Assembly: GCA_030523765.1 (NCBI GenBank)
Contig: JAUNHX010000002.1
Span: 41,342 to 105,341, forward strand
From: Bacteroidales bacterium
Lineage (GTDB): Bacteria > Bacteroidota > Bacteroidia > Bacteroidales > P3
Direction: 5' to 3'
DNA length: 64,000 nucleotides
The stretch's first letter is position 1; each line of letters opens with the position of its first letter. The notes beneath the pieces were generated by a model. The model had not been told where the DNA came from. It made no database searches and saw nothing but the letters and a program-made list of their open reading frames with translations. Below are positions 1,973-16,239 of this stretch, one piece after another. Position numbers and translations under genes: made by a program.

Positions 1973-3529
1973 TTATTTAATCACACGGGGTCCCAGACGA
2001 TCCATAGCACAACGGAAACCAATCCAAGAGGTGCTACGATCCTGATCGTAGAAGCGACGAGTACCCGGTTGCAGATAGTAAGCACGGTCGTTCCAGCTGC
2101 CACCTTTAACCACACGCACCTTGTTGCCAATGAGCGAGGAGACGGGGTCGCTAGAGGTACCACGAGCCACACGACGGTACATCTGGTTGGTAACGGTATC
2201 AGGATTGTTCATGTCGAGACCTTCGTCAGAGTAGGATTCCTCATCCTCATCGCCAATGGCCACCCATTCGGTGATAGCACCTTGAGCCTGATAGTCGTAA
2301 ATATTGCTGCTATAGTCGCCATCCAGGTAGTTGATATTGTCGGCCGTACGGTAGTTGCGACGGTTCATATCATCGTCCACATTCTTGTAGATGATACCAC
2401 CCGTAGTATCGTTGATAGCAATTTCTTCGTCGATATAGGTAGCGGTGCGATAAACGTTACCACGGAAGGGGTTCATATCTTCACCACCCACAGGGTTCAC
2501 ATCCTTACGATACACATCGGCGGTCCACTCCGACACGTTGCCGGCCATATGGTAGAGACCGTAATCGTTGGGGAAGTACCATTTCACAGGAGCGGTGTAA
2601 TCCCAACCGTCGTTCAGATTGCCAGCCACACCCATAGCGTCGCCGCGACTGCGCTTAAAGTTAGCCAAGAACTGACCATAATATTTCTTATTAGCGCTAC
2701 GGAGCGAAGTACCAGCCCAAGGATAAGTCTTGTGCTCGATGATACGCTCATCGTAAGTGTTGCCAATCAGACCCAGAGCTGCATATTCCCATTCAGCCTC
2801 GGTAGGAAGGCGATAGTTGGGCAGGAGGATACCATCTTCGCGACGCACCTGACGGGGTTCACCACCAGCAGCGGGGTCGAGGTTCTCCAGTTCGTTCTTG
2901 CTTTCACCACGATATTGGCCAGCCAGATAGACATCGGTTTGGAAGGCCGTTTCGCCACGAAGCTCGGTTTGATCAAGAACGATGATACCTTTGTCGACCA
3001 AAATCTTTTCATTTACACGGTCGGTACGCCAAACGCAGAACTGGTTGGCCTGCTCCCAGGTAACACCTACCACAGGATAGTCGTCATAGATGGGGCTCTG
3101 GAAATAGAAGTCAACCATCTCTTCGCGCCAAGCCAATTTGTCGCGCCAAGCGTTAGTATCGGGATAGACGGCGCGTACACGCTCGGGATATTCCTCACCG
3201 TAAGCACGCTGCATCCAATAAACAAATTCGCGATAACTGATGTTAGAAACCTCGGTTTCGTCCATATAGAACGACGATACGTTGACCGTATGGGCAACAT
3301 TGTTCCATTCAAAACGAGCATCGTCGCTTACACGACCCATCGTGAAGGAGCCACCCTCGATGAATACGAGGCCAGGACCCGTAAGTTGCTCGTTGTAGGG
3401 CGATTTTTCGAAACCACCCCATTCCGAATCGTTGAGATTCCAACCGGTAACGGCCGATTTCTGCTTGTTGCACGCAGTAAGGAGCAAACAAGTTACGGCA
3501 AAGAGGCAAACGGTTTTAAGCACTTTCAT
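1973..3529 (-). CDS. gldJ: Gliding/T9SS lipoprotein GldJ
   Basis: Outer membrane lipoprotein of the type IX secretion and gliding apparatus. The chosen ATG at 3529 gives a lipoprotein signal peptide with lipobox LLTAC; the open frame extends to 3589 only through a TTG start that would spoil the signal. The rest is a formylglycine-generating-enzyme-like (SUMF1) fold: FIEGGSFTMG near residue 55, YMDETEVSN, PVVGVTWEQANQFCVWR, RLPTEAEWEYAALG and a C-terminal VVKGGSWNDRAYYL with GFRCAM. The 'WRTDRVNE' and 'ATGW' segments match GldJ better than its paralogue GldK/PorK. It lies 80 bases downstream of porP and is probably co-transcribed with it. Confidence 0.85.
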   Translation of the reverse strand: MKVLKTVCLFAVTCLLLTACNKQKSAVTGWNLNDSEWGGFEKSPYNEQLTGPGLVFIEGGSFTMGRVSDDARFEWNNVAHTVNVSSFYMDETEVSNISYREFVYWMQRAYGEEYPERVRAVYPDTNAWRDKLAWREEMVDFYFQSPIYDDYPVVGVTWEQANQFCVWRTDRVNEKILVDKGIIVLDQTELRGETAFQTDVYLAGQYRGESKNELENLDPAAGGEPRQVRREDGILLPNYRLPTEAEWEYAALGLIGNTYDERIIEHKTYPWAGTSLRSANKKYYGQFLANFKRSRGDAMGVAGNLNDGWDYTAPVKWYFPNDYGLYHMAGNVSEWTADVYRKDVNPVGGEDMNPFRGNVYRTATYIDEEIAINDTTGGIIYKNVDDDMNRRNYRTADNINYLDGDYSSNIYDYQAQGAITEWVAIGDEDEESYSDEGLDMNNPDTVTNQMYRRVARGTSSDPVSSLIGNKVRVVKGGSWNDRAYYLQPGTRRFYDQDRSTSWIGFRCAMDRLGPRVIK

Positions 3530-3609
3530 AGTATTGCGATTTTTCTTTTCCTTATTCTTACGTAAAAGTTGAAAAAATGTTTCAGTCAATTGAAATATTT
3601 ATGCCATTA

Positions 3610-4632
3610 TTAGAAGCTCGGGCAGCGGATAGCCTTCACTCTAGCACGTTTTTCGGGGCAAGGCAACATGATACCCACGCTGATTTCGTGAGCACCGCTG
3701 GTGTTGTTGGCCAATCCAGAGATGGTAACATCGTAAGAGTAGCCCACTTTGAAGTGATCCTGTTGAACACCCACCATGAAGATGAAAGCATCAGGATTCC
3801 AAGGCGACTGGCCCTCCACATTGGTAAGACCATTGCGATACCAAACACCCACCAAGAAGGGCATCCAGTCGAGGTACACACCATAATTAAAATAGTGGCA
3901 GCCGGCTTGATATTGATAGATAAGATTGGGCGAGATAACGGGAGTGCCGAGACCGAGCGAGGAGGTACGGCGAGCCTCTTCCGAAAGATTGATCAAACCA
4001 CCCACATTGGCCGTCATTTTGATGGGGAGCTTGGTAACACCATAGAAGCCGTTGCTAGGCTGTGTAAGGTGCTGAGCCGAGAAGCCCACATACCAAGCAG
4101 GACCGTAAACCAAAGCACCAGCAGCGAAATCGAGATACCAGACATTCGTTTTGTCGGGGCGCTGAGCCGAGGTGTTGTTGATGAAACCGTTAATCTTATC
4201 GATCATATCGGGGAAACGGAGGTTATCCCAATCAAGACTAGTATTGACGATGCCTGCCTGAAGAGCAGCGCTAACATATATTTCGCGAGCTGCTTGGAAA
4301 CGGAATGCATACATTACGTCGGTCATCGTGGTAGAGAGAGCACCATGATCACCCTGACGGTCGGCGAAGACCAACGCTCCCACACCACCGTGCAAGCCGT
4401 CGATATACTGATCGTAGGAAGCCGATACCGTAGTGAAAGCGCTGACAAGAGCGGGCCACTGGTTACGGAAATTAAGGCTGATGCGAGGGCATATCTTAGA
4501 ACCAGCAAAAGCGGGGTTGTAATACAGCGGGTTGCTGTAGAATTGAGAGAACGTAACGTCTTGAGCCTTCACACCCTGTCCTGCAAAGAGGAGGATGGCT
4601 ACGAGGGCAAGGATTTTCGTCAATCTTTTCAT
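3610..4632 (-). CDS. porP: Type IX secretion membrane protein, PorP/SprF family
   Basis: Outer membrane beta-barrel of 340 residues with a signal peptide (residues 1-23, ending VKAQ). It has the family's N-terminal signature (DVTFSQFYSNPLYYNPAFAG) and the 'RISLNFRNQWPA' strand that follows, then repeated amphipathic strands. PorP/SprF proteins link cell-surface substrates or adhesins to the T9SS motor and lipoproteins, which fits the gldJ neighbour downstream. It is the first gene of the porP-gldJ unit. Other family members can sit elsewhere in a genome, so the exact PorP orthology is uncertain, but the family call is firm. Confidence 0.88.
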   Translation of the reverse strand: MKRLTKILALVAILLFAGQGVKAQDVTFSQFYSNPLYYNPAFAGSKICPRISLNFRNQWPALVSAFTTVSASYDQYIDGLHGGVGALVFADRQGDHGALSTTMTDVMYAFRFQAAREIYVSAALQAGIVNTSLDWDNLRFPDMIDKINGFINNTSAQRPDKTNVWYLDFAAGALVYGPAWYVGFSAQHLTQPSNGFYGVTKLPIKMTANVGGLINLSEEARRTSSLGLGTPVISPNLIYQYQAGCHYFNYGVYLDWMPFLVGVWYRNGLTNVEGQSPWNPDAFIFMVGVQQDHFKVGYSYDVTISGLANNTSGAHEISVGIMLPCPEKRARVKAIRCPSF

Positions 4633-5129
4633 GTTTCTATTCTATTCAATTTTGTCTATTAGGCCTAAAAAATTAATTGGCAATATTACGATTTTCTTTT
4701 GAATTATAAGTATTTCTTTGAAAATATTTTTTTCTACTATTGAGATACAGCGTATTACGTTTTTGTCTTATCCTTTTCCCGCGACTATTTTTGCCCCATT
4801 TACCAAGAAAAAAAAACTTTTTTGGCTTTTTTTTATCACGATGCGAGCGCTTGGAAAAGGGTTAGTGGACACTTCTCTTCGATCGGTGATGTTAGCTTCG
4901 CAAAAACAGAAGTGCGCCGCGAAAAAGGGGGCGAGTTTACTTACCTCATGGCATCAGCATTTTTTCTACACTACGACCACGAGGGTGTACATTTAGGCAG
5001 ACACTCTGGCGGGCGACGCTATCTAGTTTTGACTGGTTAGACTCCCATAGAGAGTAGTGGGCATAGGAATAGTTTAGCATCAGGATTGTATAGGAGTTAC
5101 CTTTGACTTGCATTCGAAAAGTTCCGCGG
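4633..5129 (-). other. Intergenic region upstream of porP
   Basis: About 500 bases with no gene I can support. It must contain the porP promoter, but I see no clear TAnnTTTG box. Two short plus-strand open frames (4718-4996, 4822-5040) have composition typical of non-coding AT-rich DNA and no recognisable motif. The accessory island begins to the right. Confidence 0.5.
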
Positions 5130-5213
5130 TTGTCAACCTTTTTAGGAACACTGTCAACGATGTTAGGAATTTGTCAACTTGTACAGGAAAACAAGTGACA
5201 ACCAAATCAGGAA
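5130..5213. repeat. Iteron-like direct repeats
   Basis: Three copies of TGTCAAC start at 5131, 5152 and 5172. Each is followed 6 bases later by AGGAA (5144, 5165, 5185), giving a period of 20-21 bases, about two helical turns. A fourth, degenerate copy (TGACAAC at 5196, AGGAA at 5209) continues the series. The spacing resembles protein-binding iterons at replication origins or operator arrays. They sit next to the large palindrome and outside the operon. Confidence 0.6.
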
Positions 5214-5235
5214 AAGACATGTTGTCTAGCGCGAC

Positions 5236-5393
5236 CGTCACAACGTCACAACGTCACAGTTAATATTGGAGCTATCCTAACTCAAAATAATTTCTATATC
5301 TATATATATTTATATATAAATATATATAGATATAGAGTATAACTATACCTATGATAACCAAAATATGGACTGTGACGTTGTGACGCTGTGACG
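5236..5393. repeat. 158-bp symmetric inverted repeat with AT palindrome core
   Basis: The left arm (5236-5259) is three units of CGTCACAR. The right arm (5370-5393) is the inverted version with one unit-end difference. Exactly midway is a perfect 44-bp palindrome made only of A/T except for a few C/G near its ends (5293-5336). The arms and the core share the same centre, between 5314 and 5315, with 33-base spacers on both sides. The right arm recurs, inverted and with no mismatch over 24 bases, at 11369-11392. The design resembles a replication origin with a melting core, or a large operator. Confidence 0.8.
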
Positions 5394-5452
5394 CTTTGGG
5401 TTGTTGCGACATGCTAACAACTTATTATCAGTCTCTTAACACTATGCAGAGG

Positions 5453-6085
5453 TCACTCTTTACCCTTCAATGTCATGTATTTGTCGAGTAGTGGCAGCAC
5501 ATCTTGATAGCCTCCCGACATGCAAGCGTTCCTTGGACGACCCTTGTCGATGTTGGAATAGCCCTCCTTGTCGCCAAAGAAATCGGCGTTCAGCGAAGGC
5601 GTTCCCTTAATGACAAAGAAATACTTTTCGTCTAAGAGGCCGACAATATTCTGCCATACAACCTTCACCCTATTGCCTCGTCCATATTCCAGCAGTCGCC
5701 ACAATTGTTCCGACATCGTAGCCTCTTCCCCCTCGAGCGCAACCTCGCCCAATCCTAGCACCGTTTTCAACATTTCCTTCACATCGTCGGCCGTAATGCC
5801 CTCCCTCCAATCGCCATTCTCGGTCAGATCTAAAAGCTCATTGACGATGCTCTGCCTATGGGGTGACAACGCTCTGCTATTATCCACGCGAGGCAAAGAG
5901 TTCTCGTTTCGAACCTGCTTGTCCGTTGTTTCCTGTTTCCCATTGATAATCTGGATGCCTATGCCGCCATTTTCCACATTACCAATCTCATGCTCCACAT
6001 GCTTCTCCAACACCAAGTCGCCATTGATGTTGATACCTCCTTTGCTCAGTGTTTCGAGCATTTTCTGTATATCTTCTTGATTCAT
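5453..6085 (-). CDS. Unknown protein with shared NGD/KHV/NVExGG motif (island gene C)
   Basis: I do not recognise this 210-residue protein. It has no signal peptide or membrane segment and should be cytoplasmic. Residues 21-44 form a motif (NGDxV, then KHV, then NVExGGxGI) that matches the C-terminus of the neighbouring upstream gene product in 15 of 24 positions. Residues about 75-165 look helical, acidic and Leu-rich; the tail carries 'FFVIKGTP' and a Gly/Asn-rich stretch. It is the last gene of a three-gene minus-strand unit. The short motif resembles the Gly/Asn/Asp adaptor-like tags seen on some bacterial conflict proteins, but that is only a resemblance. Confidence 0.7.
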   Translation of the reverse strand: MNQEDIQKMLETLSKGGININGDLVLEKHVEHEIGNVENGGIGIQIINGKQETTDKQVRNENSLPRVDNSRALSPHRQSIVNELLDLTENGDWREGITADDVKEMLKTVLGLGEVALEGEEATMSEQLWRLLEYGRGNRVKVVWQNIVGLLDEKYFFVIKGTPSLNADFFGDKEGYSNIDKGRPRNACMSGGYQDVLPLLDKYMTLKGKE

Positions 6086-6110
6086 AACGATGTTTTTATT
6101 TTTTCTCTAA

Positions 6111-6299
6111 AGGTAACCTCTAAAAATTGCTTCAATGTGATTTTGGAGAAGATTTATAGCAGATTGCTCCGTTGAACGAAGGAGTATAGCGGGCTATATG
6201 ACTGAGTGAAACTGAGCAAGATGCATAAATCAATCCAAAAGCACTGAAAGTATGGTTATTATTATTCCTTTTCATACGTGGAATTTTTAGAGGTTACCT
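6111..6299. repeat. 189-bp segment bounded by 18-bp perfect inverted repeats
   Basis: The 18 bases at 6111-6128 (AGGTAACCTCTAAAAATT) are repeated as an exact reverse complement at 6282-6299. They enclose about 150 bases with no gene, between two genes of the same operon. The right repeat supplies the last codons and the stop of the upstream gene. This is the shape of a short non-autonomous element (MITE), with at most a 2-base AA flank duplication; a regulatory stem is the alternative. Confidence 0.55.
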
Positions 6300-7051
6300 A
6301 AGTTGCCTTCAACAATACCTACTCCGCCCGGTTCCACATTTTGAACTTCGTAACCCACATGCTTGTCTTGAACAAAATCGCCGTTCACCGTAACTCCCTG
6401 TTGCTTCTCGCCCATCACCTTGTAAAGGGCCATTAACTCCTTGTCGTAAGCATGATTGTGTTCTAGATTGTAGCGATTCAGGAATAAGATGGTACCTCGA
6501 ATGCCTTCCGGATCGGTTTCCTTGCAATAGGTTATGAGTTCCATAAACAGCGCTCTGATCTCCTCCGAACTGCCCCCTTCGAGTTCAATTTGGTGCATCT
6601 CGTAGTTCAGCAGATCGCTCTTTTTACCCTCCATCCAGCGAGCATCCTCTTTGCGAGCCATCTGTTCGATGAGAGGGAGCAAAAGCTCGTGGTCGTCGAG
6701 ATGTTCGAAGATACGGAAGATAATGGAGTGGAAGTCGATCCCCACCCGCCGTTTGCTCAGCGCCTGCATCTGAGCGGCTGCCAGCGTCAGAATCAGCATC
6801 GCATCGTTCGGACCTTCGGCCTCCTCTTCCAAATCCTCCATCTCATCGTCCAACCCTTCGAGGGCATCGGGCAACTGTAGGAGGGTGTTGCAGAAATGAC
6901 GAGCCGAGAGAAACAGCTCGACAGGGGTGAGCGAGGTATGTCCTTGCTGTTGCATCTTCTTCAACGATTCGTGACTGATGATATAAACCACATCGCCCAG
7001 CAGCTCCCTTCGGGCCGAACGCTGCTGCTCTTTATCCATTCGTACGATCAT
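6287..7051 (-). CDS. Unknown acidic protein, C-terminal NGD/KHV/NVExGG motif (island gene B)
   Basis: I do not recognise this 254-residue protein. It is predicted soluble, mostly helical and strongly acidic (for example DDEMEDLEEEAEG near residue 70). The C-terminal residues 223-246 carry the same motif that gene C carries at its N-terminus. The start overlaps the stop of the upstream gene by 4 bases (ATGA at 7048-7051), so translation is probably coupled; a second in-frame ATG four codons later is possible. The final codons lie inside an 18-bp inverted repeat, so the natural C-terminus may have been changed by an insertion. Confidence 0.7.
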   Translation of the reverse strand: MIVRMDKEQQRSARRELLGDVVYIISHESLKKMQQQGHTSLTPVELFLSARHFCNTLLQLPDALEGLDDEMEDLEEEAEGPNDAMLILTLAAAQMQALSKRRVGIDFHSIIFRIFEHLDDHELLLPLIEQMARKEDARWMEGKKSDLLNYEMHQIELEGGSSEEIRALFMELITYCKETDPEGIRGTILFLNRYNLEHNHAYDKELMALYKVMGEKQQGVTVNGDFVQDKHVGYEVQNVEPGGVGIVEGNLGNL

Positions 7052-8037
7052 GCTACCTGTTCCTCCTCTTTGGTTACCACTTCATGTTTCATGCTGTTCA
7101 TCAGTGCTACCACCTCCTCTTCGGCCTTCAGTCGATCTTCGGGTTCCATTTGGCTCCCATCCTTCTTCACCCTTGCAAAGAGGGTTTCGAGATAGCGGTC
7201 GTTAAACTCATGACTCACAATCTTGTCGGACACATCCTCCTCGTTTTCGATAAAACAACGAAACACCCCGCCGTCGGACGTTACCAGTTCTACTGGTTGG
7301 TCGGTGGCTTGGGCATAGGTAAGCATATTACGCATAAAGACAGATTTCTTATCAATATAGAGCGCCGACTTCCTATCCTCGGGCATCACGGTATACACAC
7401 CCTTGTATTTGGCCTGCTTTTGAGCGTAGATAACATCTAGGAGCGATGATAAAATAGAATCGTCAAGATAATCGCTATCCTTCATCATCAACCGATCCAC
7501 TCTTTGCATGATTTCCTCCTTTTCCATTACTGGCACAGCAAAGCGCAGCGACTGGGTCTTGGCCTGTTTCCTTTCCCATACGGTAAAGAGGTCGGTAGGA
7601 TAATAGTCGGGCAGTATTTCGAAGCCGTAGCAGTGCTGATTGAACAGTTGTTGATCGATCACCGTAGAGAGGATTTGGGCCACTTGACGGGTGTTGCTGA
7701 AGGCCTTTCTACGTTTTTGGATAGCCACCGTACGCAGGTTAGCACGGTTGTCGATAATCACGAAACAGGAAGGTTCGTCCTTCGCTTTGGCCGGCTCGAA
7801 GTCGCGCTCTATGTCGATGTCGATATCGTTGGCGAATCGCATCACGGTGATATTGGGTGCAATGCTAAGGTTATACACTCGGTGTTTGTATATCTTCTTT
7901 TCCTCATCGTTGCCGAGCGAAAACACGAGGTTGCTGTTTGGTTTGAAAAAAGCTCCTAGGTGCTGCTGTCTGTCTTCCCAATCGTAACACCCGGGCTGTT
8001 GTTTGTACTTGATGTAATACTGAGCAAATCTTGACAT
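7048..8037 (-). CDS. Unknown protein (island gene A)
   Basis: I do not recognise this protein of 329 residues. The ATG at 8037 (MSRFAQYYIKYK) follows an A-rich leader; the frame runs to 8073 only through a TTG. There is no signal peptide or membrane segment. Features include a Trp/Tyr-rich N-terminus (QQPGCYDWEDRQQHLGAFF), 'KHRVYNLSIAPNITVMRFAND', an alternating charged stretch 'FVIIDNRANLRTVAIQKRRKAF', and an acidic C-terminal tail. Strands and helices alternate as in a compact alpha/beta protein. It is the first gene of the three-gene unit, preceded by a good -7 box, and diverges from the primase gene. Confidence 0.75.
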   Translation of the reverse strand: MSRFAQYYIKYKQQPGCYDWEDRQQHLGAFFKPNSNLVFSLGNDEEKKIYKHRVYNLSIAPNITVMRFANDIDIDIERDFEPAKAKDEPSCFVIIDNRANLRTVAIQKRRKAFSNTRQVAQILSTVIDQQLFNQHCYGFEILPDYYPTDLFTVWERKQAKTQSLRFAVPVMEKEEIMQRVDRLMMKDSDYLDDSILSSLLDVIYAQKQAKYKGVYTVMPEDRKSALYIDKKSVFMRNMLTYAQATDQPVELVTSDGGVFRCFIENEEDVSDKIVSHEFNDRYLETLFARVKKDGSQMEPEDRLKAEEEVVALMNSMKHEVVTKEEEQVA

Positions 8038-8205
8038 GTTTGTTTTTTTAATATGTGGGTTAGTTGAAAACAATCTTTGGTTTCTCTAAAAACACTTGTT
8101 GCAGTAGAGGGCGAACCATCATGGGGGATCTTTTTTGACGGATTGCAAAACGCAACGCATTGAAAATGCTTGTCTATCGATCGAGACGTTCGGTCTAAGC
8201 AATTG

Positions 8206-8213
8206 CAAAGTTA
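8206..8213 (-). promoter_or_regulatory. -7 box for the three-gene island operon
   Basis: On the minus strand this reads TAACTTTG, an exact TAnnTTTG element about 170 bases before the ATG of gene A. A TTG lies 16 bases further upstream. Confidence 0.5.
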
Positions 8214-8557
8214 CACAATTTTTTTTTAGCAATAAAGAATTTTACAACATTCGCGCAGTAACGACTGTTCCTACAATGTCCAACCGAAGGACTATCAGTT
8301 GTTAAGGCTGTTGAAAAAAAAGTTGACGTAGGAAATCATCGTAGCTTCGACAACCCAACGCCGATACTCCGATCTCCAAATATTTCTTATGCAAAAAAGT
8401 TTGGCGCAAATAAGCGGGAGTAATCCGAGTGAGATTTTTGGTGTACAATTCAAAAGAAACGATGTTTTTTTTGATTTCTGTTTTATTTGAAAAACAGCAT
8501 ATTAACAGTCAATTGTGAACAAAATCTGAGATTATCTACCCCGCATTCCAGCTTACC

Positions 8558-8565
8558 TATCTTTG
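8558..8565 (+). promoter_or_regulatory. -7 box for the primase unit
   Basis: TATCTTTG followed by CA, an exact TAnnTTTG element, 82 bases before the small leader frame and about 210 before the primase ATG. No TTTG is visible at the usual -33 distance. Confidence 0.5.
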
Positions 8566-8646
8566 CAAATGCAATCGCGAGAAAAAGCGCTTGCCAATCA
8601 AAGGAAAGTCCTTTGAGGGTTTATAAAAATTAAAACAATTAAAATA

Positions 8647-8799
8647 ATGTTTAAAATTTTTCCATTTAATGCCCAAGCACTTCGGTCGACGGGCAATCAA
8701 GCCCAAAGCGAGAACGGCCTGTTGGCTATCGCTCAGAAAAACAACCCATTTATTAACAACAAAAAGGAGGTAAGAAATGATACACCTTGTTTATTTTGA
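8647..8799 (+). CDS. Possible 50-residue leader ORF overlapping the primase start
   Basis: A small open frame starts at an ATG after an A-rich leader (MFKIFPFNAQALRSTG) and ends 23 bases inside the primase gene, in another frame. Its 3' part runs through the primase Shine-Dalgarno sequence. Ribosomes on this frame would therefore cover or expose that site, as in translational coupling or leader-peptide control. The product matches no family I know, and codon-level evidence is too short to prove that it is translated. Confidence 0.35.
   Translation: MFKIFPFNAQALRSTGNQAQSENGLLAIAQKNNPFINNKKEVRNDTPCLF
8765..8771 (+). promoter_or_regulatory. Strong Shine-Dalgarno of the primase gene
   Basis: AGGAGGT lies 5 bases before the ATG at 8777, a near-perfect match to the anti-Shine-Dalgarno. 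Bacteroidota genes generally lack this element and nearly all other genes in this window have A-rich leaders. It fixes the start at 8777 rather than the in-frame ATG at 8813. Confidence 0.75.
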
Positions 8800-11146
8800 G
8801 AATCGTAGAAAGATGGCTCGCCCCATTCAAAGCCGCGTAGAACTCATGCTATTGCGCGATGCACCCGAACGATTATCCAATCTGACGAAAGCCCGACAAG
8901 GCGATAGCAAAGCCAAAGGTCGCCTGCTTCAATTGGCCTACAACATAGGCTACGCCAACGGTCCGCTGGCTGGCTGCAAGAGTATAGGCAGTCAGTTCTT
9001 CCTCGATGTGGATTGCTATGATGTAGAACGGTCGGAAGCCATCAAAAAACAAATCATGGAGCAAAAAGAGGCCATCGGATTATTGATGCTCGAACGCTCG
9101 GTGAATGGCGGATGGCACCTTATTTGTCGCCGTCAGCAAGGCACCACGATCCTTGAGAACCAGGTGCGTGTGGCTTCGATGCTGCATCTAGAAATGGATA
9201 CCAATACCAAAGACCTTCAGCGTGTGGCTTATGCCACTAGCGCCAGCAAAGAGGATCTGGTTTATCTCGACGATGCGATCTTCACCGAACCGATGACGCC
9301 CGAGGAATGCGAACGTGAATACACATATCTGTTAGAACGGCAGCGTAATGGCGAAGAGCAAGTTCCGAAAAGTGCAAAGAAAGCGAACAAACATTATCTA
9401 AACGATGATAATAACGGAGCTTCGCACCCCAAGAAAACCATCACTGCAACCAACGGCGATGACGACAAGAAGGAGCAATCCGTTTCCGATTCGACCGTAA
9501 AGGAAAAGGGGAACGAGAAAAAGCAATTCCCTACCGAATATAAGGGGATTCCCTATACGGAGATTATAAACAAATATTGGGAGTTGAACAACGACGGCAA
9601 AGAACCCATGAAGGGCGACCGCGATACGCTGACTTATCAGCTGGCTTACGACTTGAGACATATCTGCGGACGCGATGCCGATTGGTTAGATCAGGTGATT
9701 CCTTGTTATGATGGTTTTTCGCCCGAAGAGAAACGCAAAAAGATTGATAGTGCTATGAACGCCAAGATGGAATCAATGCCCTACCGCCTTCGTATTGTGT
9801 TGCAAGCGCTGAAGGCAACAAAGAGTATGACTGCCTGTGGAGGAACCACAACCACTCCTCCCCCACTACCCCAGAAGCTGCCGCCCCTGATAGAACATCT
9901 TACCAAGAATGTGCCCGATATCTATAAGCCTGCCGTAGCTAGCGCCGTATTTCCCTCATTGGGAGCCCATATGCATGGGGTGAAGTTCCGCTATTGGGAC
10001 AATGTGGAACACGAACCTACGATTATGAATGTGCTTATCGGACGGCAGAGTATCGGTAAGGGCTGTATCAAGAAACCCATCGAATATATTATGGATGACA
10101 TCCGTCAGCGCGATATCCCCAACCGGCTGCGCGAGGCGGAATGGAAACAGAAAAATCCTGGAGCCAAGCAGAAGAAAGATCCTCGACCCAACGATATCTG
10201 TATCCAGATACTGATCGACAACATGACCGACGCGGTGTTCAACCAACGTATCGTCGATGCCCACAACAACGGACAGCGGTTCGTTTACAGTATCGTCGAT
10301 GAGATCGATGCCTTGAAGAAAGTTACTTCGCGTGGTACAGCCGACGAGGTGGGTCTGCTTATCCGTAAGGCCTACGACAACTCGATGGGAGGTCAAGATC
10401 GTGTAGGATCCGATTCGGTGACCGGTATTGCTCCAATACGATGGAACTTCAACGCTTCGACTACTCCTCCCAATGCCCGTCGTTTTTTCAACAAGATGTT
10501 GAACGATGGAACAGTGAGTCGACTCGATATCTCGACCATCATCATCAACGAAGGCAACGAGGACAATGCTCCCATCATGGGTATCTACGATCAACAATAT
10601 GCCACCGATTTGAAACCCTATATTGATCGTTTGGAAGCTGCCTACGGCGAGATTGAGTGTCCTGAAGCCAAGGATCTGGCCTTGCAGATGCGACAAGATA
10701 ACAACGATGCTGCACGACTCTACGATTCGGAGGCTTACCGTATCTTTTCCTATCGTGCTAACGTCATTGCTTGGCTCAAAGGAATGGTACTCTATGTGGC
10801 GCACGGATATAAATGGGATGATACGATAGCTGAGTTTGTCCGCTGGAGTCAACAGTACAATCTGTGGTGCAAGATGCTCTATTTCGGTCAGCAGATGGAG
10901 CAAGAGTTGAACGAAGAACTGCAGATTCAACGCCAGTCGGGTCCTCAAAACCTTCTAAGCCTCCTCCCCGATGTGTTTAACCGTGAGCAATACTCACTGA
11001 TGCGACAACAACAGGGTCGCAGCAACGACGGCGGATCTGCCCTCAGAAACTGGATTAATCGTGGATATGTGACTCGCGACGAGAAAACGAACCAATACAT
11101 TAAAACGGAAGAGTATAGGAAAAGAGTTTTAAGTTATGGGTTGTAG
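8777..11146 (+). CDS. Primase/helicase-like protein: VirE_N (BT4734-like) and DUF3987
   Basis: A 789-residue replication-type protein. The N-terminal ~180 residues resemble the BT4734-like/VirE_N domain with archaeo-eukaryotic primase features: an acidic pair D77xD79 (FFLDVDCYD), a histidine motif NGGWH114, and 'TKDLQRVAYATS'. A charged Asn/Asp/Lys linker (about 195-240) leads to a helical PriCT-like segment (about 250-330). Residues ~365-789 match DUF3987, a helicase-like module with GRQSIGKGC (422-430) as a P-loop-like turn and 'YSIVDEIDALKK' as a Walker B-like strand. Such proteins occur on mobile elements and islands in Bacteroidales. No integrase or relaxase is beside it. Its start has an unusually strong Shine-Dalgarno sequence. 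Confidence 0.8.
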   Translation: MIHLVYFENRRKMARPIQSRVELMLLRDAPERLSNLTKARQGDSKAKGRLLQLAYNIGYANGPLAGCKSIGSQFFLDVDCYDVERSEAIKKQIMEQKEAIGLLMLERSVNGGWHLICRRQQGTTILENQVRVASMLHLEMDTNTKDLQRVAYATSASKEDLVYLDDAIFTEPMTPEECEREYTYLLERQRNGEEQVPKSAKKANKHYLNDDNNGASHPKKTITATNGDDDKKEQSVSDSTVKEKGNEKKQFPTEYKGIPYTEIINKYWELNNDGKEPMKGDRDTLTYQLAYDLRHICGRDADWLDQVIPCYDGFSPEEKRKKIDSAMNAKMESMPYRLRIVLQALKATKSMTACGGTTTTPPPLPQKLPPLIEHLTKNVPDIYKPAVASAVFPSLGAHMHGVKFRYWDNVEHEPTIMNVLIGRQSIGKGCIKKPIEYIMDDIRQRDIPNRLREAEWKQKNPGAKQKKDPRPNDICIQILIDNMTDAVFNQRIVDAHNNGQRFVYSIVDEIDALKKVTSRGTADEVGLLIRKAYDNSMGGQDRVGSDSVTGIAPIRWNFNASTTPPNARRFFNKMLNDGTVSRLDISTIIINEGNEDNAPIMGIYDQQYATDLKPYIDRLEAAYGEIECPEAKDLALQMRQDNNDAARLYDSEAYRIFSYRANVIAWLKGMVLYVAHGYKWDDTIAEFVRWSQQYNLWCKMLYFGQQMEQELNEELQIQRQSGPQNLLSLLPDVFNREQYSLMRQQQGRSNDGGSALRNWINRGYVTRDEKTNQYIKTEEYRKRVLSYGL

Positions 11147-11153
11147 GTTAGGG

Positions 11154-11182
11154 GTTATCGGTTCGGAGTTATCGGTTCGGAG
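11154..11182. repeat. 14-bp tandem duplication
   Basis: GTTATCGGTTCGGA occurs twice head to tail (11154-11167 and 11168-11181), beginning 8 bases after the primase stop codon. Confidence 0.8.
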
Positions 11183-11266
11183 TGATATTTTATAGGTCAG
11201 TTTAATTATGCATCCATATTATATTGTTAAAACATTAATAATAATGCTGTTGAACTACTGAGGCTT

Positions 11267-11300
11267 CCTGAGGGGATCTCATCAATAAGGTCCCCTTAGG
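11267..11300 (+). terminator. Stem-loop downstream of the primase gene
   Basis: CCTGAGGGGA pairs with TCCCCTTAGG across a 14-base loop with one mismatch. A weak T-containing tract (TTCTT) follows, so it may be a terminator or only a structured element. Confidence 0.45.
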
Positions 11301-11368
11301 TTCTTCGAGTAAAGCTCTGTTGGGATCTTCGTCGAGATAATCCATAATTTGGAGAGCGATATAGAAAG

Positions 11369-11392
11369 CGTCACAGCGTCACAACGTCACAG
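11369..11392. repeat. Distal copy of the CGTCACAR triple repeat
   Basis: Three 8-bp units, CGTCACAG, CGTCACAA and CGTCACAG. It is the exact reverse complement of 5370-5393 over all 24 bases and differs from 5236-5259 at one base. Together with the palindrome it brackets the whole island. Confidence 0.85.
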
Positions 11393-11549
11393 TTCTTTTT
11401 AAGCGATACCCCATTTGAAGTGATACCTTTTTCAGGCGATAGTGATAGCAAATGGTTACGCTGATGGTGTAGAGCTATATACAAAGCATCCTACACAATA
11501 AAAAAGGAATAATTGAGTTATTTACGTGTTATTTTTGATATCGAATACT

Positions 11550-14500
11550 ATGTATATACGCCACTATATCCTCCTTATTGCCCTCCTAGCATCGTCGTGC
11601 GCCTTGCGAGCTCAAGGCTTTGGCGAGCATTCGGTATTGCAGCAGGGAACCTGGTACAAACTAAGCATTGCTGAAACAGGTATCTACCGACTGACGACGA
11701 CCGACTTGGCTTGGCTGAAAGGGAAGTCGACCAACCAATTGGCCCTCTATGGTGGTACGGGCGCTGTGATGAGTGCTGAGAATAGCATTGCCCGTCCCAA
11801 AGATCTGACCCCTTGTGCTATCGAAGTGGTGGACCGCAACGGCAACGGATCTTTCGATGACGATGATTATATTTTATTCTATGCCGAAGGACCCGATACG
11901 TGGCAATACAACAGTGCCACAAAGCGTTACCAACATCAGCGACATCCTTACGACAACTATAATTACATGTTCCTCACCCTTTCTGACAACGGCGCCAAAC
12001 GTATTGCTACCGCCGAAAAGGTGACGAGCAACCGTACTGTTGATAGTTATACTGCTCGTTCTTTTTACGAGAAAGATCTGATTAACACCCACAATACGGG
12101 CCAGGTATGGGTAGGTGAAGGCTTCTCTAATGCCAGTCAGCAACGTTCGTTCACCCTTACCTTGCCTCACATCAAAGCCAACAGCCCAGTGAGTTGCCGC
12201 ATAGCTCTGGCCAGTATTGCCAACGGCAACAGCCAGTTTTCGGTATCGCTCAACGGCTCTACTCAAAACAATGAGTTTACTCCCGCTGCCTATTATAACA
12301 TTATGAGTGCCAACTATACAAGCAGCAATGCCGCACTCACCTTTTCTATCAACTACTCCTCCCCTATCAGTTCGGCGATAGGCTATCTCGATTTTATCGA
12401 GGTCAACGCCGAAGCGCCTCTCCGTTTTGTAGGGAGTCAGCTACCTTTCCGCAATCATTTATACACCGACAGTCTTGCGGTTCAGTATGTGATGAGTGGA
12501 GCTAGCAGTCAGGTTACCATATGGGATGTAACCGATATCAACAACATTGAACGCCCCGCGCTCACGCTTTCGGGCAACACCCTTACTTTTGGTGCCACCA
12601 CCGAACAAGTACATGAATTTGTAGCCTTCGATGGCAGCAGTTTTCTTTCGCCAGCCATCATTAGTAGCCTGTCCAATCAAGACATTCGAGGTCAAGGCAA
12701 TCCCGATATGATCATCGTGACCAACTCTCAATTTATGACTCAAGCAGAGCAATTGGCCACACTCCATACCCTTTTCGACAATATGGAGGTTCAGGTGTGG
12801 AGCCAAGAAGAGGTATTCAACGAGTTTTCTGAAGGCAAGAAAGACCCGATGGCTATCCGCGAGATGTTCCGAATGTTTAACAAGAGAGCTGAGACCGATC
12901 CCTCGATACGGCGTCCTACCCATCTGCTTATGTTTGGCAAAGGGACATACGATAACCGCGATTTGCTCAACAATCAGATACCTACGGTGGTAACCTACCA
13001 GTCGCCCACCTCGTTTACCACCGATGGTGCTTTTTCGGCGAGCGACGATATGTTGGGCTATTTGGGCGACAGCGAAGCGGGCCGTACCTATGAGAGTCTC
13101 GATCTCGCCATAGGTCGCCTTCCTGCCCGCAGTACGGCCGAAGCCAATCTGCTGGTTGATAAGATAGAACGTTATTTAATGAAAAACGATCTTGGATTGA
13201 GCGATGTTCGTGGCGATTGGCGCAACTACGTTACCCTCCTTGCCGACGATGCCGATCCTAGCTGCGCGAGCGATGTAGATTTTGCCCTTTCTAGCGAAAA
13301 CATTTCCTCACTGATAGAGGAACGCTACCCTTGGATTAACCTAGAGAAGATCTACGCCGATGCCTACCAACAACAAAGTGGCGCTATCGGTTCCTATTAT
13401 CCCGATGCCACGAATGCGTTGAAACAGCGTATGAACTACGGATGCCTCCTGCTCAACTACATAGGTCACGGATCGGACCAATATATTGGTACTGAACGAT
13501 ACATGCAGGAAACAGATATGGCCAACTATACGAATACCAACCAGTTGGCATTCTTTGTAACCAGCACTTGCAGCTTTGGTAAATACGACCGGCTGGACGG
13601 CAATTGCGGTGCGGAGATGTTTATGCTTTCGCAAGGTGCGGGTGTGGGAGCAGTAGCTGCGGCTCGTCCTATTTCACATATCCGATCCTTCAACACAGCG
13701 TTGGTGATGAACACCCTAGACAACAATAATAGCGTAGGAGAAGCCTTACGCATTACCAAAAACAGCTATCCCTTATCGCAAAACAAAGCTATCACGCTGT
13801 TGGGCGACCCAGCACTTCACCTTTCGGTGCCTGAGCTGAACATTCGGGTAACGGCCATTAACGGTCGTATGGTAGATACCGCTGTGGCTGATAGCTGCTT
13901 GGTGCTCTCGGAAGTGACTGTGGAGGGGGTGATTGAAGACGACAACGGAGCGCTTCAAAGCAATTTCGACGGATTGATCTACCCTATCGTTTTTGATCGT
14001 CCTACCCAATGTCGCACGCTAGCCAACGACAATGAAGGCACGGAGGTCGATTTCACCCAACAAAAGAATATATTATATAAAGGTGTCGACTCGGTTGTGA
14101 ATGGTCGCTTCAGCTACTCATTCATTGTTCCGCGCGATGTATCCTACCAATTTGGACAAGGGAAGTTAAGCCATTACGCCAAATCGGCCTCTACCGATGC
14201 TAGCGGCTCGTATCAGAACATTCTGTTTGGTGGGTTCAACGATTCGGTCGACCTATCGGAAACGCGTCCTGAGATACGTCTCTTTATGAACGACAGCAAT
14301 TTTGTAAGCGGCGGACTCACCAATGAGGACCCTTCGCTTTATGCTATCCTTTGGGACGAGGTGGGCATCAACGCTGTGGGTAGCGGTATGGGACACGATA
14401 TTACAGCCATTCTTGACGACAATCCCAACGATCTAATTATTCTCAACGATTTTTATCAAACCGATATTGCCGATGGACATCGAGGATATATCCGCTACGA

Positions 14501-14915
14501 TTTCTCGACGCTCGCTCCTGGACGTCACACGCTGACGCTAAAAGCGTGGAATATTTACAATTATTCAAACCAAGCTAGCATCGAGTTTGTGGTTCAGTCG
14601 GCCGATACTGCCTCCATAGGTCGTTTCTTTGCCTACCCCAACCCGGCCACCGAACAGACGGTGATACACCTTGAGCACAACTGTCCACAGGGTATCAACA
14701 GCGCGGTGGTGACCATCTTCGATATGCGAGGGCAGCAGGTACGACAGTTCTCTCCCTCCATCAACAACGATTCGTTTGTGGTTGATCCCATCCATTGGGA
14801 TTTCTGTACCGAAGGAGGGGCTGCATTGCAGAGAGGCATTTATCTAGTTAGAGGAATCCTTACTACCACCGATGGAGAAACGCTTGTGGCAGCCACCCGT
14901 TTGGTGAAGCTCTAA
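11550..14915 (+). CDS. porU: Type IX secretion system sortase PorU
   Basis: A 1121-residue surface C25 (gingipain-type) cysteine peptidase. In the T9SS it cleaves C-terminal signal domains from exported proteins and attaches them to anionic LPS. The ATG at 11550 (MYIRHYILLIALLASS) gives a signal peptide; the frame opens with a GTG at 11526. An N-terminal beta-rich region of about 380 residues precedes the C25 domain, which begins 'PDMIIVTNSQF' and contains 'HLLMFGKGTYDNR'. The catalytic pair is visible as His640 in NYIGHG and Cys674 in TSTCSFGKYD. The C-terminus has a 'FAYPNPATE' type IX-like domain. porV follows, the conserved order. Confidence 0.92.
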   Translation: MYIRHYILLIALLASSCALRAQGFGEHSVLQQGTWYKLSIAETGIYRLTTTDLAWLKGKSTNQLALYGGTGAVMSAENSIARPKDLTPCAIEVVDRNGNGSFDDDDYILFYAEGPDTWQYNSATKRYQHQRHPYDNYNYMFLTLSDNGAKRIATAEKVTSNRTVDSYTARSFYEKDLINTHNTGQVWVGEGFSNASQQRSFTLTLPHIKANSPVSCRIALASIANGNSQFSVSLNGSTQNNEFTPAAYYNIMSANYTSSNAALTFSINYSSPISSAIGYLDFIEVNAEAPLRFVGSQLPFRNHLYTDSLAVQYVMSGASSQVTIWDVTDINNIERPALTLSGNTLTFGATTEQVHEFVAFDGSSFLSPAIISSLSNQDIRGQGNPDMIIVTNSQFMTQAEQLATLHTLFDNMEVQVWSQEEVFNEFSEGKKDPMAIREMFRMFNKRAETDPSIRRPTHLLMFGKGTYDNRDLLNNQIPTVVTYQSPTSFTTDGAFSASDDMLGYLGDSEAGRTYESLDLAIGRLPARSTAEANLLVDKIERYLMKNDLGLSDVRGDWRNYVTLLADDADPSCASDVDFALSSENISSLIEERYPWINLEKIYADAYQQQSGAIGSYYPDATNALKQRMNYGCLLLNYIGHGSDQYIGTERYMQETDMANYTNTNQLAFFVTSTCSFGKYDRLDGNCGAEMFMLSQGAGVGAVAAARPISHIRSFNTALVMNTLDNNNSVGEALRITKNSYPLSQNKAITLLGDPALHLSVPELNIRVTAINGRMVDTAVADSCLVLSEVTVEGVIEDDNGALQSNFDGLIYPIVFDRPTQCRTLANDNEGTEVDFTQQKNILYKGVDSVVNGRFSYSFIVPRDVSYQFGQGKLSHYAKSASTDASGSYQNILFGGFNDSVDLSETRPEIRLFMNDSNFVSGGLTNEDPSLYAILWDEVGINAVGSGMGHDITAILDDNPNDLIILNDFYQTDIADGHRGYIRYDFSTLAPGRHTLTLKAWNIYNYSNQASIEFVVQSADTASIGRFFAYPNPATEQTVIHLEHNCPQGINSAVVTIFDMRGQQVRQFSPSINNDSFVVDPIHWDFCTEGGAALQRGIYLVRGILTTTDGETLVAATRLVKL

Positions 14916-15057
14916 TTGACTGGCAATGCATCAAAAAAAATAACAACCACCCAAACAATAAAAACAATATATTGTCGTTTACCCTATCACATCACCTCTT
15001 TTTTTTACAATCATTGAAGAGTTGATTTCATTAATAAAACTAAGTAGAGAATAGAAA

Positions 15058-16239
15058 ATGAGAAATTTTGCCAAATTTTTCCTCTTGACCGCTGGATTGC
15101 TTCTTGCTTCCAGTTCATTGATGGCACAAACCAACTACTCGGGTCAGCAAGGTAATTACATCCTTACGGGTCTTCCCATCTTGCTTACTGCTCCCGATGC
15201 TATTTCGAGCGGTATGGGTGACGTGGGTGCCGCTACCACTCCCGACATTTATTCAGCCCACTGGAACAACGCCAAATTTGCCTTTGCCGACGAAAAATTC
15301 AGCATCGGTACCACCTATACCCCTTGGATGCGCAAATTGAACGTAAGCGATATGAACTTCCTTTATTTGGGAGGATTCTACCGTTTGAGTAACCGCAACG
15401 CTGTAGCTGCATCGTTGACCTATTTCACCACTGGCGAGATTGATCATACCGATGAATTGGGGACCGTTTTAGGACAGTTTACTCCCTACGAGATTTCGTT
15501 CGATGTTACCTATTCCATGAAACTGACCGACAATCTGGCATTGGGTGCTACAGGTCGCTTTATGAGCAGCAACCTGACCAACAACCTAGATGTGCAGGGT
15601 ATGTCGACCAAAGCTGCCAACGCTGCTGCAGCCGATGTAGGACTTTACTATGAGAACGATATCGACCAGAGTCAAACGGTAGCTGCGGGTCTCTTTATCA
15701 GTAACCTCGGTTCTAAACTACGTTATTCTGACAACAACACCGAAGCCGATTTCTTGCCTGCCAACCTCCGTATTGGTGGTCGCTATACATATAATATTGA
15801 TCAATACAACCGCGTGAACCTGATGGCTGACGTGAATAAGCTCCTAGTGGCTACGCCTCCTATTGTTGACGAAAATACTGGCGAGGTTTACGGTCGCGAT
15901 GCCTCCTATTCTGAATATCAGACCCTCAGTTCTATGCAGAGCGCTCTCTACTCCTTTAGCGATGCTCCTGGCGGATTCAAAGAGGAGATGCGCGAGCTGC
16001 AGCTGAGTGTGGGTGGTGAATATTGGTACAGCAACACCTTTGTGGCCCGTGCTGGTTATTTCTACGAACACGAAACCAAAGGTGGACGTCAGTACCTCAC
16101 CCTCGGTGCAGGTCTGCGCTACAACACCTTCGATTTTAGTCTTTCCTACCTCATTCCTACCACCAAACTCGACAACAATCCTCTATCCAATACTGTCCGC
16201 ATTTCGCTGACGTGGAATATGAAGAAGAAAAACGCTTAA
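15058..16239 (+). CDS. porV: Type IX secretion outer membrane channel component PorV
   Basis: A 393-residue outer membrane beta-barrel of the FadL-like PorV/LptO family, with a signal peptide (residues 1-24, ending SLMAQ). The diagnostic N-terminal block 'LTAPDAISSGMGDVGAATTPD' followed by 'SAHWNNAKFAF' is present. The C-terminus ends in a typical barrel strand. In the T9SS, PorV carries substrates from the SprA translocon to the PorU sortase, which is encoded just upstream. It is spaced 142 bases from porU and overlaps the open frame, but not the true start, of ispF. Confidence 0.92.
   Translation: MRNFAKFFLLTAGLLLASSSLMAQTNYSGQQGNYILTGLPILLTAPDAISSGMGDVGAATTPDIYSAHWNNAKFAFADEKFSIGTTYTPWMRKLNVSDMNFLYLGGFYRLSNRNAVAASLTYFTTGEIDHTDELGTVLGQFTPYEISFDVTYSMKLTDNLALGATGRFMSSNLTNNLDVQGMSTKAANAAAADVGLYYENDIDQSQTVAAGLFISNLGSKLRYSDNNTEADFLPANLRIGGRYTYNIDQYNRVNLMADVNKLLVATPPIVDENTGEVYGRDASYSEYQTLSSMQSALYSFSDAPGGFKEEMRELQLSVGGEYWYSNTFVARAGYFYEHETKGGRQYLTLGAGLRYNTFDFSLSYLIPTTKLDNNPLSNTVRISLTWNMKKKNA

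Follow-up and report, generated by a model that had tools for sequence, protein, structure and literature searches.

A dispersed family of palindromic repeats with terminal octamer arrays in Bacteroidales gut bacteria, probably of REP/MITE type

Architecture and surroundings of the 158-bp element

The window, by which we mean the whole 64-kb stretch of Bacteroidales DNA that was analyzed, contains a 158-bp palindromic element that lies beside the remnant of an insertion sequence and near a block of uncharacterized genes. Palindrome and hairpin-arm scans delimited its AT-rich core, and a further array without a palindrome was identified elsewhere in the window. The features are as follows:

5131..5219, + strand: right end of an IS3-family insertion sequence, with GTCAACNNNNTNAGGAA-type direct repeats and the terminus ..CAGGAAAAGACA
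5236..5393, no strand: whole palindromic repeat element, 158 bp, with a paralogue at contig 44:39373-39530
5236..5259, + strand: left array of three CGTCACAR octamers (units CGTCACAA CGTCACAA CGTCACAG)
5260..5292, no strand: left spacer, 33 bases, of which the initial ~18 resemble other arms (TTNATATT..GNTATCC type)
5293..5336, no strand: AT-rich core, a perfect 44-bp palindrome
5337..5369, no strand: right spacer, 33 bases
5370..5393, - strand: right array of three inverted CGTCACAR octamers (reverse complement CGTCACAG CGTCACAA CGTCACAG)
11369..11392, + strand: lone three-unit array upstream of porU that has a partial spacer motif but lacks a palindrome

The initial annotation had described inward-facing arrays of three units each (5236-5259 and 5370-5393), equal 33-base spacers (5260-5292 and 5337-5369), and a perfect AT palindrome sharing the center of the arrays (5293-5336), and each of these is present, with 5314.5 as the common center of the core and both arrays; the two arrays are complementary at 23 of 24 bases. 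Its view that a chance origin is unlikely also holds, as shuffles yielded nothing comparable in the array, hairpin, and folding controls. A palindrome search of the entire window found none of at least 18 bp other than the core. The longest hairpin arm of the core is 22 compared with 12 or less in 100 dinucleotide-shuffled inserts, and the folding z-score of the element is -12.7 as DNA and -13.6 as RNA. Two-unit array matches number six in the window, compared with an average of 0.08 and at most 1 in shuffled sequence. The array at 11369-11392 and the direct repeats at 5131-5219 had both been absent from the earlier description.

A gene encoding a 789-aa protein (8777-11146) lies 3.4 kb from the palindrome. 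This protein had been labeled VirE_N/DUF3987, which we could not confirm given that it has no significant match in Pfam, NCBIfam, or PDB; searches of viral contigs found no relatives, and four neighboring genes matched nothing convincing in Pfam, NCBIfam, or PHROGs. Among the fetched array loci, a homolog is encoded in only one other genome (G027, 71% identical), where it has no adjoining palindrome but carries an in-frame three-unit CGTTACAR array within a variable linker of its coding sequence. The 210-aa (5453-6085) and 254-aa (6287-7051) proteins share a short motif of the approximate form NGDxVxxKHVxxExxNVExGGxGI, and neither could be matched to a known family; the palindrome on contig 44 is adjoined by a piece of the 210-aa gene. 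Type IX secretion genes, encoding an FGE-sulfatase-domain protein (GldK type), PorP/SprF, a PorU-like peptidase C25, and PorV, flank this uncharacterized block in the region 1973-16239.

Distribution and covariation of the repeat

A search of the source genome with the two-unit array gave 22 matches compared with none for the reversed control. Apart from the second complete copy on contig 44, three diverged copies were found: one of 166 bp with CATTACAR arrays on contig 6, one of 290 bp with CGTTACAR arrays and a degenerate right arm on contig 32, and one with CATTACAR arrays on contig 27, which is 401 bp long because a 189-bp inverted-repeat element sits inside it. At least five half copies have arrays located 57-115 bp from contig ends, most of them leading into AT-rich palindromic sequence, so that the contigs break there, inside the AT core. 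Single arrays are present not only at 11369-11392 of the window but also at contig 51:948 and, three times and in inverted orientation, on contig 36. The element copies of this genome occupy mutually unrelated gene contexts.

We collected 32 paired elements from the source genome, its congeners, and other Bacteroidales MAGs, accepting partner arms by a degenerate pattern in which variable positions were left free. The pairs have a median length of 163 bp (mostly 151-179 bp), conservation drops immediately beyond the arrays, and, based on approximate gene calls, the elements nearly always lie between genes, the orientation of which follows no consistent pattern. Three-unit CRTYACAR arrays are encoded in nine of the 119 genomes of the genus, the source genome counted, and the exact paired CGTTACAG pattern is found in none of 393 genomes across the order, revealing that the family is patchy. 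Copy number is low, with one to eight exact array matches per genome in 18 genomes. Among the matches listed in a scan of public genome_contigs, paired arrays come from MAGs labeled Prevotella, Prevotellaceae, Bacteroidaceae (including Candidatus Minthosoma), Paludibacteraceae, and Bacteroidales; the listed matches outside Bacteroidota, nearly all of them unpaired, probably reflect chance or simple repeats. Similar elements of two Bacteroidaceae MAGs contain 3/3 and 5/4 array units. A search of the accessible literature for the letters of the array octamer retrieved no matching paper. These sequences constitute a family of ~160-base hairpin-forming intergenic repeats of Bacteroidales gut bacteria without an earlier name.

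Subfamilies differ in their octamer (CGTCACAR, CGTTACAR, or CATTACAR), and within each element the octamer type is the same on both arms. Comparison of ten distinct arm pairs, each of 48 bases, showed that 96.3% of cells are paired and that seven pairs have two-sided changes. Cells with a double change number 18 compared with 5.7 in shuffles (0 of 500 reach this value), a control that is weakened by sequence relatedness although slid versions nonetheless score far lower. The core hairpin exceeds shuffles in 20 of the 32 pairs and is not clearly stronger than shuffles in the other 12. At four orthologous loci (G023, G133, G008, and SRR873607_bin.10) the arrays and spacers are nearly identical and most differences fall within the core; core lengths of 50, 44, 42, and 41 nt were found, and the core is palindromic in every case, with the qualification that all compared genomes are MAGs or drafts so that part of the core variation may be an assembly effect. 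The G008 element has a change within both arms. Template switching at hairpins is able to produce symmetric changes of arms and core (PMC8794818), with selection as the alternative. The proposal that this is a hairpin or cruciform-forming site is the one suggested function that remains plausible, as it suits both the symmetric build of the element and a core that has evolved symmetrically.

Association with an IS3-family element

The insertion sequence end at 5131-5219 is 16 bp from the left array, and the body and left end of the element are missing at this locus. A fuller copy on contig 44 (L023 ~7890-9367) matches HTH_Tnp_1/HTH_28, rve, and rve_3, has a frameshifted OrfB, gives a partial match to NF033516 that is below the cut-off of that model, and has the ends TGTCTTATACTG.. 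and ..CAGGAAAAGACA. The left neighbor of the palindrome therefore belongs to the IS3 family, as it has an HTH OrfA, an OrfB with an rve domain, and terminal inverted repeats.

Right ends of this insertion sequence were searched for independently of the presence of arrays. Of the 11 identified in the source genome, seven are near an array, at distances of 6, 6, 6, 6, 16, 17, and 17 bp (the 6-bp gap at contig 51:948 was read directly off the sequence); the remaining four comprise one at 83 bp, another at 159 bp, and two on contig 36 for which the only facing array is inverted. G035 and G133 likewise have a gap of 6 bp; in G008 it is 15 bp. The hexamers separating the insertion sequence from the array vary by locus (CGCGAC, GCAAAG, ACAAAC, AAAAAA, ACCTAC, and TTGAGG), which favors independent insertion events at a constant spacing. 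Elsewhere, two closely related copies have no adjoining array, demonstrating that the preference for arrays is not absolute. IS3-family elements are known to target REP palindromes (PMC1525189); here the association of the insertion sequence with the palindromes is demonstrated, and it suggests targeting.

The same tight spacing, which recurs in several species, could also mean that the IS3 element carries the palindrome along as an extension of its right end and does not target it. We consider this very improbable given that the six intervening bases vary by locus, that many palindromes have no recognizable insertion sequence end, and that some copies of the insertion sequence have no palindrome.

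Relationship to known repeats and alternative interpretations

Several known repeat systems resemble the present family. MITE-like palindromes of bacteria, such as ERIC, Correia/CREE, and the Rickettsia palindromic elements, are likewise short, noncoding, mostly intergenic, and hairpin-forming, with inverted ends and several copies per genome (PMC10969869). In contrast to these, the elements described here have tandem octamer arrays with subfamily-specific sequence as termini, a hypervariable palindromic AT core, and low copy number, and no target duplication was found. They share with MITEs a short, noncoding structure with terminal inverted repeats (inverted arrays, median 163 bp) and multiple dispersed copies that are mainly intergenic by approximate gene calls; however, a comparison of flanks for target-site duplications was no better than shuffled pairings, of which 124 of 500 reached the observed mean. 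REP/BIME sequences, together with the insertion sequences that target them (IS1397, ISKpn1, and ISPsy8), are similarly interspersed palindromes in which the position of an inserted IS3-family element is fixed (PMC1525189). Unlike the 20-40 bp REP/BIME units, the present elements are ~160 bp, no RAYT gene was found, and the insertion sequence is located not in the palindrome but beyond the array, at a distance of 6 or 16-17 bp. Assignment to the REP/RAYT class, which is defined by a GTAG- or CGTC-tagged palindrome of 20-40 bp, is not supported: the tag of that class is unpaired (PMC3733652), whereas the CGTC letters here belong to paired array units, and the source genome, a MAG that is 95.8% complete, has no match to the Y1/RAYT transposase (Y1_Tnp, PF01797). 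BrickBuilt, a MITE of Porphyromonas gingivalis, is also an intergenic Bacteroidales element with tandem short repeats in an inverted-repeat structure (PMC4596501), but its 23-nt minisatellite lies between a leader and a tail, whereas the 8-nt arrays form the ends of the palindrome here. The most suitable name is that of a palindromic interspersed repeat behaving like REP/MITE repeats, and we do not file it as a MITE.

On balance, we favor, with some reservation, the interpretation that the 158-bp structure belongs to a dispersed family of ~160-bp noncoding palindromic repeats that is probably mobile in the manner of REP/MITE elements, serves as a landing site for an IS3-family element, and keeps its symmetry through hairpin formation. 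Such a repeat has an AT-rich palindromic core, a spacer on each arm, and inverted arrays of at least three octamers as its termini, and it would probably be nonautonomous. The arrays would be putative terminal binding sites for a trans-acting factor, and the IS3-family element would insert repeatedly alongside, its right end facing the array at 6 or ~16 bp. Extrusion of a hairpin or cruciform at replication, followed by template switching between arms, could then change arms and core jointly. No transposase between facing arrays was found among the fetched loci. Searches of the genus for an empty site with joined flanks returned only other repeats and leader sequences and no orthologous sites, and a comparison of porU synteny revealed no empty island, as the congeners are too diverged (31-44% identity) and include no close relative. 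As neither a target duplication, an empty site, an autonomous element, nor a trans factor was found, we infer, rather than observe, the palindrome's own mobility and any enzyme for it. It is conceivable, although we doubt it, that the arrays are co-evolving sites of a putative undescribed protein acting in trans, be it a recombinase, a transposase, or a nucleoid protein, and that this protein recognizes the octamer tandems of both arms of the extruded hairpin, in which case the repeats would form a distinct class of bacterial palindromic element with its own enzyme.

A site retained by selection for the benefit of the host, such as a transcript 3' hairpin, an mRNA-stability element, or a site for a nucleoid or regulatory protein, would account for the compensatory changes in the arrays as well as for the symmetric core and strong RNA fold. 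Some elements or arrays begin 3-14 bp from the 3' end of a gene (by approximate gene calls), and some single arrays are upstream of promoter-like sequences. However, only a minority of congeners carry arrays, their gene context and orientation are inconsistent, and there is no bacterial match in Rfam, where hits to the element were all below the gathering score and mostly to eukaryotic miRNA hairpins, making this interpretation unlikely; because the two strands are nearly equivalent, RNA and DNA roles are indistinguishable. A scan for sigma-70 promoters and terminators gave nothing. Inverted arms of ~24 bp separated by ~110 bp are also reminiscent of invertible segments, and the gene block of the window is bounded by outward-facing arrays at 5370 and 11369, as might be expected of an attachment or inversion site at which an integrase or invertase uses the arrays as crossover arms. 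Such a role is improbable given that the orientation of the insert relative to its flanks is constant at the four orthologous loci and that no recombinase was recognized beside the elements in a non-systematic look.

The suggestion that the structure is a replication origin or a large operator serving the 789-aa protein is largely refuted and hardly credible. Although an AT-rich core between iteron-like arrays, the proximity of the 789-aa gene, and the array inside the coding sequence of its G027 homolog are in its favor, no primase domain is recognized in the protein, and an iteron origin would be expected once, in association with the gene of an initiator, whereas this architecture recurs in many copies per chromosome with unrelated neighbors and no linked gene. 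An operator for the island proteins is similarly unsupported, because the G027 homolog has no adjoining palindrome and the other fetched array loci have no 789-aa gene. The same array thus occurs unlinked to these genes, an outcome that the initial annotation had itself named as grounds for refutation. The element is not a functional part of the genes that adjoin it.

If the favored interpretation of a dispersed palindromic repeat is right, gut Bacteroidales gain a hairpin-repeat family of unusual build, combining octamer arrays with a core that remains palindromic through re-editing, and thereby a natural case of symmetric palindrome editing on a short evolutionary timescale. It would also provide an IS3 element with a fixed-distance target that is open to testing, and palindromic repeats would account for assembly stops in this genome.

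Two other recurrent sequences were observed. A leader-like sequence of the form GTTTCCGAACCGCCGAAGCCCCTCTCGAGAGC.. (L141 4094-4240, L225, and L227) recurs in many congeners and has no Rfam match at gathering score. The 189-bp inverted-repeat element, which has AGGTAACCTCTAAAAATT ends, is located at 6111-6299 of the window and has copies on contigs 27, 36, 39, and 51 that are mostly flanked by TTA..TAA; one copy interrupts an IS3 right end on contig 51, and one the palindromic element on contig 27.
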